NCBI GenBank assembly: GCA_947489315.1
Contig: CANLCX010000003.1
Coordinates: forward strand, 1 to 64,000
Direction: 5' to 3'
Source: an uncultured Sphingomonadaceae bacterium
GTDB taxonomy: Bacteria > Pseudomonadota > Alphaproteobacteria > Sphingomonadales > Sphingomonadaceae
DNA length: 64,000 nucleotides
Both the position numbers and the translations under genes were made by a program. Below the pieces are notes generated by a model. It saw only the letters and a program-made list of their open reading frames with translations, was not told the DNA's origin and made no database searches. Below are positions 10,568-35,236 of this stretch, piece by piece; positions within the stretch are counted from its first letter, which is position 1; the number at the start of each line of letters is the position of its first letter.

Positions 10568-10876
10568 CAAAGTTCACACAGTTCACAGGGTCTTCTCTAT
10601 CCTCGATTTCAGGCACTTGCGCGCTCCGCACTTGATGCGGAGCCTAAGGTAGACGGGCGTGACAGCCATCCTGGGTTCCGCATCAAGCGCAGAGCACTAG
10701 GCGGCAAGGGTGTTTTTATCCTCGCACCGACACCCAGGGCCAAAGTTCACACAGTTCACAGGGGTTTTTTGCGCTTGTTTGGAACATGCGCCCGCAGGAA
10801 ATTTATGTGGTTCCGGAACAGTCATTGAGGACGAACCGGCTTCAATACCAATCTCAAAGTTCACACAAATCACAGG
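10568..10876. repeat. Three copies of a 22-bp direct repeat (AAGTTCACACAGTTCACAGG type)
   Basis: Copies lie at 10568-10589, 10741-10762 and 10855-10876. The first two are identical; the third differs by two bases in the middle. The first two copies are also preceded by GG and followed by at least one more G. Each copy contains GTTCACA-type half-sites in tandem. Spacers of 151 and 92 bp differ in length and sequence, which does not fit a CRISPR array. The third spacer region contains no recognisable gene. Confidence 0.8.
10623..10699. repeat. Palindromic repeat pair (GCTCCGCA hairpin type)
   Basis: A perfect 8-bp stem GCTCCGCA / TGCGGAGC (10623-10630 and 10636-10643) with a CTTGA loop is followed at about 10674-10695 by a diverged copy in the opposite orientation containing TTCCGCATCAAGCGCAGAG. 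Two inverted hairpin units about 30 bp apart give the layout of a REPIN-type element. The pair sits between the first and second 22-bp direct repeats. Confidence 0.6.
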
Positions 10877-12614: not shown

Positions 12615-13505
12615 ATGTCTATCTTAATCGACAAAAACACCAAGGTTATCACCCAAGGCATGACCGGTAATACCGGTACATTCCACACCGAACAGGCGCT
12701 GGCTTATGGTACGCAAATGGTCGCGGGTGTGACCCCTGGCAAGGGCGGCACGACCCATATCGGTCTGCCCAACTATAACACCGTGGAAGAAGCCAAGCAC
12801 GCAACCGGAGCGACCGCTTCGGTGGTTTATGTGCCGCCTCCGTTCGCCGCTGACTCGATCCTCGAAGCAATTGATGCTGAGATTGAACTGATCGTCGCGA
12901 TTACCGAAGGTGTTCCGGTGCTCGACATGGTGCGGGTGAAGCGGGCGCTGCAAGGCTCCAAGTCGCGGCTTATCGGCCCGAACTGCCCCGGCGTTTTGAC
13001 CCCTGATGAATGCAAGATCGGCATCATGCCCGGGAGCATTTTCCAAAAGGGTTCCGTGGGCGTAGTCTCTCGTTCCGGCACGCTCACCTATGAAGCCGTG
13101 CATCAGACCACAGCGGTTGGCCTTGGCCAGACCACCGCGGTTGGCATTGGCGGTGATCCGGTTAACGGCACCAACTTTATCGACGTGCTCGAACTCTTCC
13201 TTGCAGATGATGAAACCAAGTCGATCATCATGATCGGCGAAATTGGTGGCAGCGCGGAAGAAGAAGCGGCGCAGTTTATCGCTGACGAAGCCAAGAAGGG
13301 CCGCAGCAAACCGATGGTTGGCTTTATCGCAGGTCTTACGGCACCTCCGGGTCGCCGCATGGGCCACGCAGGCGCGATTGTTTCCGGCGGCCAGGGCGGC
13401 GCGGAAGACAAGATCGCGGCAATGGAAGCGGCTGGCATTCGCGTGTCACCGTCACCAAGCGAATTGGGCACCACGCTCGACGCGATGCTGAAAGAAACGG
13501 TCTGA
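12615..13505 (+). CDS. sucD: Succinyl-CoA ligase (ADP-forming) subunit alpha
   Basis: A 296-aa alpha subunit of succinyl-CoA synthetase. The CoA-binding Rossmann domain opens with [19 protein letters not shown], and the phosphohistidine loop is [12 protein letters not shown] (near residue 250). It performs substrate-level phosphorylation in the TCA cycle with the beta subunit. The beta-subunit gene sucC, commonly just upstream, is absent from this window; the upstream gene is the small exported protein. Downstream, a palindromic element with a GIY-YIG gene separates it from sucA. Confidence 0.95.
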
Positions 13506-13516
13506 AGATAGTCTAG

Positions 13517-13600
13517 TGCCCCTGCGCAGGCAGGGGCCCATCTCCTGATGTTGCGACTAGAGTGAAACAGTGGAGATGGAACCCTGCCTGCGCAGGGATA
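13517..13600. repeat. REPIN-like palindrome, copy A
   Basis: Two inverted 29-bp arms (13517-13545 and 13572-13600; 25 of 29 matches) separated by a 26-nt loop. Each arm contains a hairpin: in the left arm CCCCTGC, loop GCAG, GCAGGGG (7 bp), followed by a CCCATCTCC tail. The inter-arm loop shares GCGACTA and GAAACAG with copy C at 35.2 kb. It ends 19 bp before the GIY-YIG start codon. Confidence 0.85.
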
Positions 13601-13619
13601 CGGCAACGAAAGGGAAGCG

Positions 13620-13910
13620 ATGAAACCCGGCGCTGTCTATATTATGGCAAACCGGAAAAACGGAGCGATTTATACCGGCGTAACAAGCGATCTGATCAAA
13701 CGCGTTTACCAGCATCGAAATGGATTGGTAGATGGATTCACCAAAGATCATGATTGCAGAAAACTGGTTTGGTTTGAAATGTTTGACGATCTGGAAGAAG
13801 CGCGCAGGCGGGAAGTTCAGATCAAGAAATGGAAACGGCCTTGGAAGATAAAGCGGATTGAAGAGCGTAATCCAGATTGGGACGATCTTTGGTTTGATAT
13901 TGCGAAGTGA
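13620..13910 (+). CDS. GIY-YIG nuclease family protein
   Basis: A 96-aa single-domain GIY-YIG endonuclease. The defining strand pair is AVYIM (5-9) and AIYTG (16-20); the catalytic-helix arginine region is SDLIKRVYQH (Arg28), and the acidic/basic helix ARRREVQIKKWKR (61-73) supplies the likely Glu. The size and the NGLVDGFTK segment match the abundant stand-alone bacterial GIY-YIG family of unknown role. The start codon lies 19 bp after a REPIN and the stop 30 bp before another inverted arm. The gene interrupts the sucD-sucA interval, so it looks like cargo or the engine of the repeat unit rather than a TCA-cycle gene. Confidence 0.9.
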   Translation: MKPGAVYIMANRKNGAIYTGVTSDLIKRVYQHRNGLVDGFTKDHDCRKLVWFEMFDDLEEARRREVQIKKWKRPWKIKRIEERNPDWDDLWFDIAK

Positions 13911-13940
13911 ATTTGTCGGTTGAATATTGGCCAAATGGCA

Positions 13941-13969
13941 GGAGATGGGCCCCTGTCTGCACAGGGGCA
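13941..13969. repeat. Single inverted REP arm, copy D
   Basis: A 29-bp arm in the opposite orientation to the left end of copy A. The hairpin stem has T-A in place of C-G at its innermost pair, a compensatory change. It ends 14 nt before the sucA start codon; the sucA ribosome-binding site (TGGAG, 13971-13975) begins directly after it. Confidence 0.8.
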
Positions 13970-13983
13970 CTGGAGTTTTGATT

Positions 13984-16773
13984 ATGGGCTTTGAAAATCA
14001 GGAATTTGGTGTCGGCTCCGAAAAGGAAGCAGGCCCCAGCTGGCAAAAGAAACATTGGCCGATTGATGACGCCGATGAACTGAACAGCGCGCTCGACCCC
14101 ACGCAAATGGGTGTCGAGATCAAGGCGGCTGCAGCGAAATCCGGCAAGTCCATGTCCGATGCTGAAGTGGCCTTGGCGGCGGAGAAATCCATCCGCGCGA
14201 TGATGCTGATCCGCACCTATCGGGTGCGCGGGCATCTCGGGGCGAATCTGGATCCCTTGGGATTGTCCAAGCTCGAAGAACCCGCTGACCTGACTCCTGA
14301 ATTCCATGGCTTTACTGCTGACGAGATGGACAAGCCGGTTTTTCTCGGCGGTGTGCTGGGGTTTGAAACCGCATCCATTCGTGAAATCGAAGCGGTGCTC
14401 CGCGCCAATTATTGTGGCTCGGTTGGCCTCGAATATATGCATATTGCCGACACGGTGGAACGGCGCTTTTTGCAGGACCGGATGGAGGGCAAGGACGCCG
14501 CCATCCAGTTTACGCCGGAGGGCAAGAAAGCGATCCTCAACAAGGTGATTGAGGGCGAGGAATATGAAAATTTCCTCGGTAAGAAATATGTCGGGACCAA
14601 GCGTTTCGGCCTTGATGGCGGCGAATCGATGCTACCAGCGCTGGAAAATATCATCAAAAACGGCGGCGCCGCCGGTGTCCGCGATATTGTCTATGGCATG
14701 GCCCATCGCGGACGTTTGAACATTCTCGCCAATGTGATGGCGAAACCCTACAAGGTGATCTTTCACGAATTTCATGGCGGTTCGTCCAACCCCGATGATG
14801 TCGCGGGTTCGGGTGATGTGAAATACCATTTGGGTACGTCCACTGACCGGGAATTTGACGGTATCAATGTGCATATGTCGCTGGTGCCCAATCCATCGCA
14901 TCTCGAAGCGGTTGATCCAGTAGTACTCGGCAAAGTTCGCGCGCAGCAAGTGGCGCGCGATGATCTGGAAAAACATGATCAGGTGCTGCCCGTACTGATC
15001 CACGGCGATGCTGCCTTTGCTGGACAAGGGATTGTCTGGGAATGTCTCGGCTTCTCCGGCATCCGTGGTTATAATACCGGCGGCTGCATCCACTTTGTGA
15101 TCAACAACCAGATCGGTTTCACGACCAGCCCGCAATTTGCGCGTTCTTCGCCTTATCCGTCTGACGTCGCCAAGGGCGTACAGGCACCGATTTTCCATGT
15201 GAATGGCGATGATCCCGAAGCGGTGACCTTTGCCTGCAAGATCGCGATCGAATTTCGCCAACGCTTTGGCCGCGATATCGTGATCGACATGTGGTGCTAC
15301 CGCCGCTTTGGCCATAATGAAGGCGATGAACCCAGTTTCACGCAGCCAATCATGTATGCCGCGATCAAGAAACATCCCAAGGTCAGCAAGCTTTACGAAG
15401 CGCGACTGATCGAAGAAGGCGTGGTCGATGCCGATTGGGGCGCGAACACGCGCAAGGCCTTTGCTGACCATCTTGAAACCGAATTTCAGGCCGCCGCTGA
15501 TTATAAGGCTGACAAAGCCGACTGGTTTGGTGGCCGCTGGCAGGGGCTGCATATTCCGGCCGATCCGGAAACGGCACGGCGTAATGTTGAAACAGCCATT
15601 GATCCAAAATTGTTCGACAGTTTGGGCCGGACGCTGATCACCGTTCCTGACGGGCATAGGATACACAAGACATTGGGCCGCGTTCTCGATGCCAAAGCCA
15701 AGATGTTTAAAACCGGCGAAAATTTCGACTGGGCAACCGGTGAAGCGCTGGCTTATGGCTCGCTGGTATCCGAAGGCTATAATATTCGCCTCTCCGGCCA
15801 AGACAGTGGCCGCGGCACATTCAGCCAACGCCATGCCGTCTGGGTGGATCAGGAGACGGAAGAAAAATATGTGCCCTTGAGCACCGTGCCGCATGGCCGG
15901 TTTGAAGTGCTCGACAGCCCGCTGTCTGAATATGGCGTGCTCGGTTTCGAATATGGCTATGCTGGTGCTGACCCGAAAACACTGGTGCTTTGGGAAGCGC
16001 AATTTGGTGATTTCGCCAACGGCGCGCAGATCATGATTGATCAGTTTATTGCCAGCGGAGAGGCCAAATGGCTGCGTGCCAATGGACTCGTGATGCTGCT
16101 CCCCCATGGCTATGAAGGTCAGGGTCCAGAGCATAGCTCGGCGCGGCTCGAACGCTTCCTGCAGCTATGCGCGCAGGATAATATCCAGGTCGCGAATATC
16201 ACGACACCGGCCAATTATTTCCACGTGCTCCGCCGCCAGATGCTGCGCAGTTTCCGTAAGCCTTTGGTGATCATGACACCAAAATCACTGCTGCGTCACA
16301 AATCGGCTGTGTCGAGCGCCGAGGAATTTCAGGGCGAGCATCATTTCATGCGGATCAAGTCGGATACCAATCCGCCCGCTGACAAGGATGTGAAACGGTT
16401 GGTGCTCTGTTCGGGTAAGGTCGCTTATGATCTTATCGATGCGCGAGATGCTGCCAAAGACAAAAACACGGCGATTGTCCGGATTGAGCAGCTCTATCCG
16501 TTCCCGTCCGAGCCTTTGGTGGTTCGTCTCAAGCGAATGAAAAATCTTGAGACGCTTGTTTGGGCGCAAGAAGAGCCGCGCAATAATGGCAGCTGGCATT
16601 TTGTTCGGCCTTATCTGGAAGAATGTCTGGAGCAAGCGAAAGTGGGACCGGTTGATCCCGTCTATGCTGGGCGCGACGCATCAGCTTCGCCCGCAACCGG
16701 ACTGGCTTCACGGCATAAAGAGCAGCAGGCGCAACTGGTTGCCGAGGCTTTGGGGCATCCAGTAAAGAATTGA
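13984..16773 (+). CDS. sucA: 2-oxoglutarate dehydrogenase E1 component
   Basis: A 929-aa thiamine-diphosphate-dependent E1 subunit of the 2-oxoglutarate dehydrogenase complex. It decarboxylates 2-oxoglutarate and reductively succinylates the lipoyl group of SucB. Visible family landmarks include RTYRVRGHLGANLDPLG, MAHRGRLN, HGDAAFAGQG, the ThDP-region FVINNQIGFTTSP, and RRFGHNEGDEP. A 19-codon upstream extension (from 13927) reads through the REP arm and is rejected; the ATG at 13984 follows TGGAG. The gene is full length and is followed 42 bp later by sucB. Confidence 0.95.
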   Translation: MGFENQEFGVGSEKEAGPSWQKKHWPIDDADELNSALDPTQMGVEIKAAAAKSGKSMSDAEVALAAEKSIRAMMLIRTYRVRGHLGANLDPLGLSKLEEPADLTPEFHGFTADEMDKPVFLGGVLGFETASIREIEAVLRANYCGSVGLEYMHIADTVERRFLQDRMEGKDAAIQFTPEGKKAILNKVIEGEEYENFLGKKYVGTKRFGLDGGESMLPALENIIKNGGAAGVRDIVYGMAHRGRLNILANVMAKPYKVIFHEFHGGSSNPDDVAGSGDVKYHLGTSTDREFDGINVHMSLVPNPSHLEAVDPVVLGKVRAQQVARDDLEKHDQVLPVLIHGDAAFAGQGIVWECLGFSGIRGYNTGGCIHFVINNQIGFTTSPQFARSSPYPSDVAKGVQAPIFHVNGDDPEAVTFACKIAIEFRQRFGRDIVIDMWCYRRFGHNEGDEPSFTQPIMYAAIKKHPKVSKLYEARLIEEGVVDADWGANTRKAFADHLETEFQAAADYKADKADWFGGRWQGLHIPADPETARRNVETAIDPKLFDSLGRTLITVPDGHRIHKTLGRVLDAKAKMFKTGENFDWATGEALAYGSLVSEGYNIRLSGQDSGRGTFSQRHAVWVDQETEEKYVPLSTVPHGRFEVLDSPLSEYGVLGFEYGYAGADPKTLVLWEAQFGDFANGAQIMIDQFIASGEAKWLRANGLVMLLPHGYEGQGPEHSSARLERFLQLCAQDNIQVANITTPANYFHVLRRQMLRSFRKPLVIMTPKSLLRHKSAVSSAEEFQGEHHFMRIKSDTNPPADKDVKRLVLCSGKVAYDLIDARDAAKDKNTAIVRIEQLYPFPSEPLVVRLKRMKNLETLVWAQEEPRNNGSWHFVRPYLEECLEQAKVGPVDPVYAGRDASASPATGLASRHKEQQAQLVAEALGHPVKN

Positions 16774-18060: not shown

Positions 18061-18122
18061 CTCGTCATGCTGCATTTGTTTCAGCATCCCGGGAGATCCT
18101 GAAACAAGTTCAGGATGACGAG
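18061..18122. repeat. Palindromic intergenic repeat (CTCGTCAT type)
   Basis: A 62-bp near-palindrome centred on CCCGGG in the sucB-lpdA gap. The outer 28 bases of the two arms match at 24 positions. Each arm also folds alone, with stems ATGCTG/CAGCAT on the left and ATCCTG/CAGGAT on the right, so one arm-to-arm difference is compensatory. Sequence differs from the CCCATCTCC family, so this is a second repeat family with the same two-hairpin layout. It ends 14 nt before the lpdA start codon. Confidence 0.75.
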
Positions 18123-25600: not shown

Positions 25601-25684
25601 TACTCCTGCGCAGGCAGGAGCCCATCTCGTACCGTTTGTGCAAGACGCCAGGGTCGGAGATGGCCCCCTGCCTACGCAGGGGTA
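25601..25684. repeat. REPIN-like palindrome, copy B
   Basis: Inverted arms at 25601-25629 and 25656-25684 with a 26-nt loop that is unlike those of copies A and C. The left arm carries the hairpin CTCCTGC-GCAG-GCAGGAG, with a T-A pair replacing a C-G pair of copy A (compensatory). It lies between doxX/bufD and sigF, within the metal-response gene cluster. Confidence 0.85.
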
Positions 25685-35150: not shown

Positions 35151-35236
35151 GTGCTCCTGCGCAGGCAGGAGCCCATCTCCTGAAATAGCGACTAAACGAA
35201 ACAGCGGGAGATGGGCCCCCGCCTTCGCGGGGGCAC
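35151..35236. repeat. REPIN-like palindrome, copy C
   Basis: Inverted arms at 35152-35180 and 35207-35235. The left arm matches copy A left at 27 of 29 positions; both differences pair with each other (T-A for C-G). The right arm shows another compensatory pair (C-G for T-A) inside the stem. The loop shares GCGACTA and GAAACAG with copy A. It ends 5 bp before the start codon of the next gene. Confidence 0.88.

Follow-up and report, generated by a model that had tools for sequence, protein, structure and literature searches.

A stand-alone GIY-YIG nuclease gene framed by CGTC-like REPs in a Sphingomonadaceae genome: a candidate nuclease-REPIN pair

The sucD-sucA block

We analysed a window of 64,000 nucleotides from the genome of an uncultured Sphingomonadaceae bacterium, in which a stand-alone GIY-YIG nuclease gene (13620..13910, + strand; 96 aa, motif residues intact) lies between sucD (12615..13505, +) and sucA (13984..16773, +; its start assumed to be the ATG at 13984). 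The gene is framed by REP repeats. The left arm (13512..13547, +) has a GTGC head that points outward, an 8-bp stem, a GCAG loop and a gene-facing CCCATCTCC tail, and the right arm (13939..13974, -) is a single REP that also has its tail facing the gene and its head outward. Inverted-repeat comparison within the window found these outer arms to be 36 nt long and 92% complementary; the terminal inverted repeats described in an earlier note on this DNA are thus present, and are longer than the 29 bp given there. Between the left arm and the gene, an internal arm (13572..13597, -) pairs with the left arm in inverted orientation (26 nt, 92%), so that an ordinary REPIN stands upstream of the window's GIY-YIG gene. 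On folding, the left and right arms each formed a hairpin with an 8-bp stem and a 4-nt loop (-10.8 kcal/mol and z -3.4 for the left arm), and the left and internal arms together (13512-13603) folded at -33.3 kcal/mol (z -8.2).

The window ORF matched PF01541 at E 1.3e-16 in a profile search, and both the extra internal arm and the 96-aa GIY-YIG gene (ORF 13620-13910) that the same note placed between sucD and sucA were borne out. The protein is a bare catalytic domain that agrees with the GIY-YIG superfamily profile as well as with its conserved residues, and an alignment of chosen proteins shows no variation at V6, Y7, Y18, G20, R28, H32, E65 and N84 (32 of 32 sequences). In a structure search with the predicted model (pLDDT 96), the nearest fold was UPF0213 (E 2.9e-4); Slx1, a structure-selective nuclease, and the N-domain of UvrC were weaker matches (E 0.04-0.1). 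Compared with the nearest relative, G006, the gene has a dN/dS of about 0.12, a low value that gives signs of purifying selection. The stand-alone UPF0213 GIY-YIG proteins 1zg2 and 1ywl are the nearest solved sequences and folds. We know of no repeat association for these two proteins, which are from Bacillus and Enterococcus.

Two REPIN populations in one genome

Within the window, the core CCCCTGCGCAGGCAGGGG had eight matches at up to three mismatches, one place being counted on both strands, versus 0.02 expected. The recurrence of the same arm, unaccompanied by a gene, at 25.6 and 35.2 kb was confirmed, and both places proved to be two-arm REPINs of the window family, one at 25603..25682 with arms spaced 61 bp and one at 35151..35236 with a diverged second arm. 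In the 3.88-Mb assembly, CTGCGCAGGCAGG gave 18+12 matches at up to one mismatch, compared with 0+2 for the reversed control; by inspection, 22 of these 30 matches are REP arms and eight are not. Nine inverted pairs of matches were found, seven of them at a spacing of exactly 61 bp and two at 123 and 128 bp. The stems of the 22 arms are conserved, with 97.7% of 176 stem cells paired and both sides changed in 18 cells. Their heads are GTGC or related, 21 of the 22 have a CCA tail and 20 have C-G as the second stem pair, and the first stem pair is G-C in 11, A-T in five, G-T in three and unpaired in three. It is the REPINs, and not the gene, that are dispersed in abundance.

A PF01541 profile search of the genome found three genes: the window's, a second stand-alone gene of 96 aa (C1:602978-603259) and one in a 641-aa open frame that we interpret as uvrC. 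Arms of 29 nt, 100% complementary and belonging to a REP family distinct from that at the window's gene, frame the second stand-alone gene. The pattern of this second family had 27+29 matches at up to two mismatches versus 1+0 for the control, 35 being exact, a count in which the gene's own two arms appear on both strands. We counted 17 inverted pairs spaced 51-53 bp, one of which is a gene-less REPIN in the window (10623..10695, 52-bp spacing). Two stand-alone GIY-YIG genes are thus present in this genome together with two REPIN populations, which differ in their spacing. Another CGTC-type REP, with a CTTGT-like loop and a GACGAG end, forms an inverted pair at 18061-18122 of the window, between sucB and lpd.

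There is no RAYT gene in the window, as the earlier note had said, and a genome-wide search with PF01797 for a RAYT gene matching the window's repeat family found none. The single Y1/RAYT-like gene that this search turned up is on a different contig from the window and is framed by a third, unrelated repeat, with inverted copies of the ATTACGGTGACAGTTTACT type (L034, 1156-1203 and 1925-1972). In several relatives, the repeats of Y1 genes are similar to ATTACGGTGACAGTTTACT or are of the GGGGACAG type, as described for TIRYT genes in PMC3733652. In addition, the window's repeat is present in the relatives G006 and G003, where no Y1 gene was found. A RAYT as the owner of the window-type repeats was not supported, since the Y1 repeat of this genome is unrelated and G006 and G003 have the repeats without Y1. 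We also examined 30 Y1 loci (L034, L175-L203) in a crude test, 12 of which had no ORF bearing the required motif. Among the 18 Y1 ORFs measured, which in a few loci may be the neighbouring gene, 11 had a flanking inverted repeat scoring at least 16, and by eye none of these was of the GIY-YIG classes.

Framing of GIY-YIG genes in relatives

Matches to the window protein occur in 74 of 117 related genomes, often as more than one copy. We examined the best locus of each of 30 genomes, along with 80 more stretches, none longer than 20 kb, that were chosen by hand and non-randomly from the listed matches. An inverted repeat scoring at least 16 spanned the gene in 20 of the first 30 loci. In the 80 stretches, with genes less than 300 bp from an edge left out, the same score was reached at 65 of 83 GIY-YIG genes versus five of 1140 other ORFs and three of 466 short ORFs, the controls being uncurated open frames, delimited mechanically, with a minimum length of 60 aa. 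Three of the five control ORFs above the cut-off themselves adjoin CGTC-type REPs, and 18 of the 83 GIY-YIG genes had no strong flanking inverted repeat. With 200-bp flanks, 66 of 84 GIY-YIG genes were framed, compared with four of 1153 control ORFs and with three of 223 ORFs flanked on each side by 60 bp or more of intergenic DNA (p 3e-46). The expectation that these arms would be commoner at GIY-YIG genes than elsewhere held in both comparisons, and the control ORFs rule out chance or general intergenic hairpins.

The usual layout at GIY-YIG loci has the REP head outward and the tail facing the gene. The nearest upstream tagged hairpin was tail-inward in 62 of the 75 loci that have one, and the nearest downstream one in 56 of 80. 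Of 110 GIY-YIG loci, 48 had tail-inward tagged REPs on both sides of the gene, 41 had them on a single side and 21 had none, versus four, 84 and 1091, respectively, among 1179 control ORFs.

Repeat class, GIY-YIG clade and repeat dose

Flanking hairpins were sorted by loop and stem apex into 20 labels, one of them meaning none, a scheme drawn up after the data had been seen. On a tree of 110 GIY-YIG proteins, which left out five of 115 matches as too short or identical and has four rows containing a stop codon, these labels need 38 changes, compared with a shuffled mean of 76.5, and none of 200 shuffles was as low. A class was shared by both sides at 75 of these loci, found on one side only at 33 and on neither at two. 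Since common loci could produce such a fit between class and tree, we grouped the loci by shared neighbours into 47 syntenic clusters, 45 of them with a repeat class, and drew one gene per cluster. In each of five draws, 23-26 changes were needed versus shuffled means of 30.5-32.4, and none of 1000 shuffles was as low. The GIY-YIG clade therefore tracks the repeat class, an expectation of the earlier note that holds with one gene per locus.

Repeat dose was compared in 59 genomes of the window's family that are at least 90% complete, using counts that include arms beside genes and ignore relatedness. The 47 genomes with GIY-YIG had a median of 11 matches of two repeat patterns, whereas the 12 without had a median of 0 (p 5e-5). 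The CTTGT_GAA repeat had a median of 12 matches where that gene class was fetched (n=18) versus 2 elsewhere (n=41; p 3e-4), and the window-class repeat a median of 10.5 with its gene class fetched (n=6) versus 1 otherwise (n=53; p 0.002). Five genomes (G016, G027, G031, G033 and G058) had 20-62 matches of the window repeat and no gene of the class among the fetched loci. Repeats were also present in G011 (14 matches of two patterns) and in the incomplete G004 (17) and G008 (16), which have no GIY-YIG match.

History of the sucD-sucA locus

Among 22 sucD-sucA junctions of the genus, eight have the gene, four are bare, nine have a single REP-like hairpin and one has REPINs only. Sites without the gene were therefore found in relatives, as had been anticipated, and four of the 22 lack any hairpin. 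The gene also adjoins sucA in G025, G027 and G031, of the same genus but outside the 22 junctions, and in G033, G047 and G057, of three other genera. Since a GIY-YIG gene stands next to sucA in other genera too, with differing repeat classes, this placement is old. Within the genus, gene types are at odds with the sucA tree, which is built on one gene, a weak species tree in which the G013 row was entered twice; the five window-type copies need five changes, and the starred branches force all of them. A purely vertical sucD-sucA gene within the genus is hard to square with these extra changes.

Between the window and G006, the GIY-YIG ORF is 95.2% identical and the upstream REPIN gap 93.0%, and the 300 bp of sucD and sucA next to the element are 92.7% and 92.3% identical, respectively, compared with 85.9% in the rest of sucA. 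Windows within sucA range from 79 to 95% identity, and dS is 0.18 for the GIY-YIG gene versus 0.69 for sucA. The short stretch from the ORF to sucA is gapped and only 72.6% identical, since in the sucD-sucA gap of G006 (L146) another hairpin sequence breaks the right REP arm. The raised identity that runs into sucD and sucA points to recombination beyond the element, of the kind seen in allelic exchange or homing, not to cut-and-paste of 453 bp. The sucD-sucA copy thus seems, from these alignments, to spread by local recombination, with an uneven tract of identity.

All 27 GIY-YIG pairs of at least 81% identity share both neighbouring genes, and non-syntenic pairs begin at 80.9% identity and run downward. 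In three of ten hand-chosen non-syntenic pairs, a continuous REP-to-REP alignment ended within about 10 bp of the REPs (L129/L131, -83 to +75; L118/L138, -66 to +39; L120/L142, -49 to +48). In the other seven, the gene and partial flanks align, mostly with separate short matches at the repeats, and none aligns far beyond the repeats. One genome has two GIY-YIG genes in tandem, together with their repeats; the copies lie at a distance of 578 bp and include an exact direct repeat of 376 bp (L110, 9372-10325). REP-gene-REP units may therefore have moved or been duplicated, rarely. The idea of the block as a freely self-mobile unit was not supported by these comparisons: the close pairs are all syntenic, the gene lies by sucA in other genera, and the stretch of raised identity between the window and its nearest relative includes flanking sucD and sucA.

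The flanks of gene-less sites are too diverged to place the joint, and so are those of five candidate precise empty sites of REPINs in the 20-kb stretches. One presence/absence difference was seen, a REPIN before sucB in G027 that is absent from the window. In the sucD-sucA gaps of G005, G016 and G004 (L159, L162 and L164), REPINs follow one another, and the short stretches between them look, on inspection by eye, like the 3' end of the GIY-YIG gene; the pattern is that expected if the gene tail and a REPIN had been duplicated in tandem. Three gene-less gaps, in G014, G020 and G023 (L154, L151 and L152), contain a single REP that matches the left end of the window's block exactly, both in its own sequence and in its left flank, and before sucA a CCCTCCCCAAGGAA leader common to other gene-less relatives. 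Two GIY-YIG genes with different repeat classes are present in L065, L066 and L068 (G031, G027 and G013), one just 5' of sucA and the other some 4.4-4.5 kb downstream of the start of sucA, which probably places the second gene past sucB.

GIY-YIG genes and repeats in other bacteria

At E 1e-12, a profile built from 32 proteins had matches in 112 of the 398 Pseudomonadota genomes that were sampled. We fetched 20 loci from other alphaproteobacterial orders and 20 from outside the Alphaproteobacteria. A score of at least 16 was found at 15 of 19 measurable GIY-YIG genes in the former (controls 4/293) and at 11 of 22 in the latter (controls 2/287). In a further set of 80 named GTDB loci, which has no control ORFs, 52 of 79 measurable genes reached this score, and many of the framed loci have the CGTC/TGTC...CCA form of repeat. 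Taking the titles of metagenome-bin records at face value, gene and repeat are paired in records that bear the names of Beta-, Gamma- and Deltaproteobacteria, Nitrospirae, Planctomycetes and Omnitrophota, the framed genes of this set including those under the titles Bergeriella (Neisseriaceae), Pseudomonas, Rhodanobacter, Cupriavidus, Nitrospirae, Planctomycetes, Omnitrophus and Desulfosarcina.

Comparison with known systems

The arrangement resembles the REPIN-RAYT system (REPtron), which also has a gene framed by inverted REPs and dispersed REP doublets. RAYTs are repeat-specific enzymes, a feature to which the class-specific co-occurrence seen here may correspond. According to PMC8049555 and PMC3733652, RAYT genes are mostly vertically kept, and the GIY-YIG gene is likewise mostly vertically kept. 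Unlike a RAYT, however, the window protein is a GIY-YIG protein (PF01541), with no HUH-Y1 gene between the repeats, and the repeats have no GTAG tag at the hairpin foot. The genome's own Y1 gene looks like a TIRYT gene, a Y1 gene with terminal inverted repeats (PMC3733652). TIRYT genes share with the window's block a small nuclease gene and an inverted-repeat frame, but the repeat of this Y1 gene is unrelated to the window's.

The repeats themselves are closest to the CGTC-type REPs defined by Di Nocera et al. in 2013, which PMC3733652 reports from all orders of Alphaproteobacteria, from Neisseria (dRS3) and from Rickettsia (RPE-4/6), apparently without a dedicated transposase and unassociated with transposase genes. 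Shared features are the alphaproteobacterial emphasis, a stem of 8-9 bp, a loop of 4-5 nt, a CCA tail and inverted dimers. The window family has this stem, loop and tail form, with an 8-bp stem, a GCAG loop and a CCCA tail, and CGTC or TGTC heads are common on the arms at GIY-YIG loci elsewhere. However, the window family has the head GTGC (not CGTC, TGTC or CCTC) and a stem start that is mostly not A-T. As it departs from the strict CGTC head and A-T stem start, we call it CGTC-like.

With GIY-YIG homing endonucleases, the window gene shares the catalytic domain and a selfish-looking allelic behaviour at sucD-sucA, but no intron was seen at the window gene, the protein has no separate DNA-binding domain and the gene is framed by REPs. 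A search of open-licence full text in PMC found no paper that appears to link GIY-YIG with REPs; an earlier report may exist elsewhere. REPIN-RAYT systems are already known; what appears to be new here is a GIY-YIG partner for CGTC-like REPs.

Interpretation

We observe that GIY-YIG genes are framed by REPs, that gene and repeat co-occur in a class-specific manner, and that each stand-alone GIY-YIG gene of this genome is matched by one dispersed REPIN population; added to these are conserved motif residues, low dN/dS, gene-less sites and conserved stems. It is almost certain that the pairing itself is real. Its anatomy and its behaviour as a population make it the counterpart, built on GIY-YIG, of RAYT-REPIN, and our preferred reading, which we hold to be probable, is that of a dedicated nuclease-REPIN pair serving CGTC-like REPs. 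We judge it quite likely that the GIY-YIG proteins act on the REPs and, with appreciably less assurance, think that they probably mobilise the REPINs.

From these patterns we infer a route that runs from hairpin recognition through cleavage and mobilisation to repair. Each small GIY-YIG protein would recognise the hairpin of one CGTC-like REP family, which is probably presented by single-stranded DNA that folds at the replication fork or by extrusion of a cruciform, and would cut at the hairpin base (the REP foot). Cuts at both inverted REPs would release or expose the REPIN, which host repair or recombination could then copy to new places with no covalent transposase step. GIY-YIG enzymes are hydrolytic; a covalent transposase step is therefore unlikely, and strand transfer would have to be the host's. 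The GIY-YIG gene, placed inside such a REP pair, would be kept by selection; it would mostly remain at one locus or spread through local recombination, and would at most rarely move as a REP-gene-REP unit.

Some of the evidence from the sucD-sucA locus would also fit a homing-type selfish GIY-YIG gene that uses pre-existing REPs as landing sites, the REPINs being spread by something else. Nine of the 22 junctions in the genus have a single REP-like hairpin and no gene, gene types there are at odds with the sucA tree, and raised identity runs from the element into sucD and sucA. We nevertheless regard this explanation as unlikely, because repeat dose follows the presence and class of GIY-YIG, the two genes of this genome each have their own dispersed family, and the measurable Y1 genes carry other repeats. 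Less likely still is that the host has domesticated the nuclease for the processing of REP hairpins or cruciforms in replication or repair, with no present spread and with its function keeping the pairing together. Such a nuclease would agree with the synteny of close relatives, with the low dN/dS and with the structural nearness to Slx1 and UvrC that the predicted model suggests; REPIN populations of fixed spacing and a dose that goes by class nevertheless speak for spread, at least in the past, and movement of the unit could account for the three REP-to-REP alignments between different loci.

A passive association, in which REPs gather between genes or serve as terminators, and GIY-YIG genes lie there by chance, would draw on the fact that intergenic REPs are common in these genomes: a tail-inward tagged hairpin stands on one side of 84 of the 1179 control ORFs. 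However, only three of 223 control ORFs with intergenic DNA on both sides are framed, and the congruence of class and clade leaves this rival strongly disfavoured and very improbable. Beyond the dedicated nuclease-REPIN pair in the relatives studied here, we see roughly even chances for a wider proposal: that GIY-YIG proteins are the long-missing enzymes of CGTC-type REPs, including the dRS3-like ones of Neisseriaceae, and form a second, independent REPIN class in several phyla, spread through structure-specific hairpin cleavage and host repair with no covalent transposase-DNA intermediate.

CGTC-type REPs apparently have no dedicated transposase (PMC3733652), and the class-tracking GIY-YIG proteins provide a named candidate that can be tested. 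If the dedicated pairing is true, the biology of REPINs would gain a second enzyme family comparable with the RAYTs, and nuclease-repeat pairs would have arisen convergently on unrelated catalytic domains.
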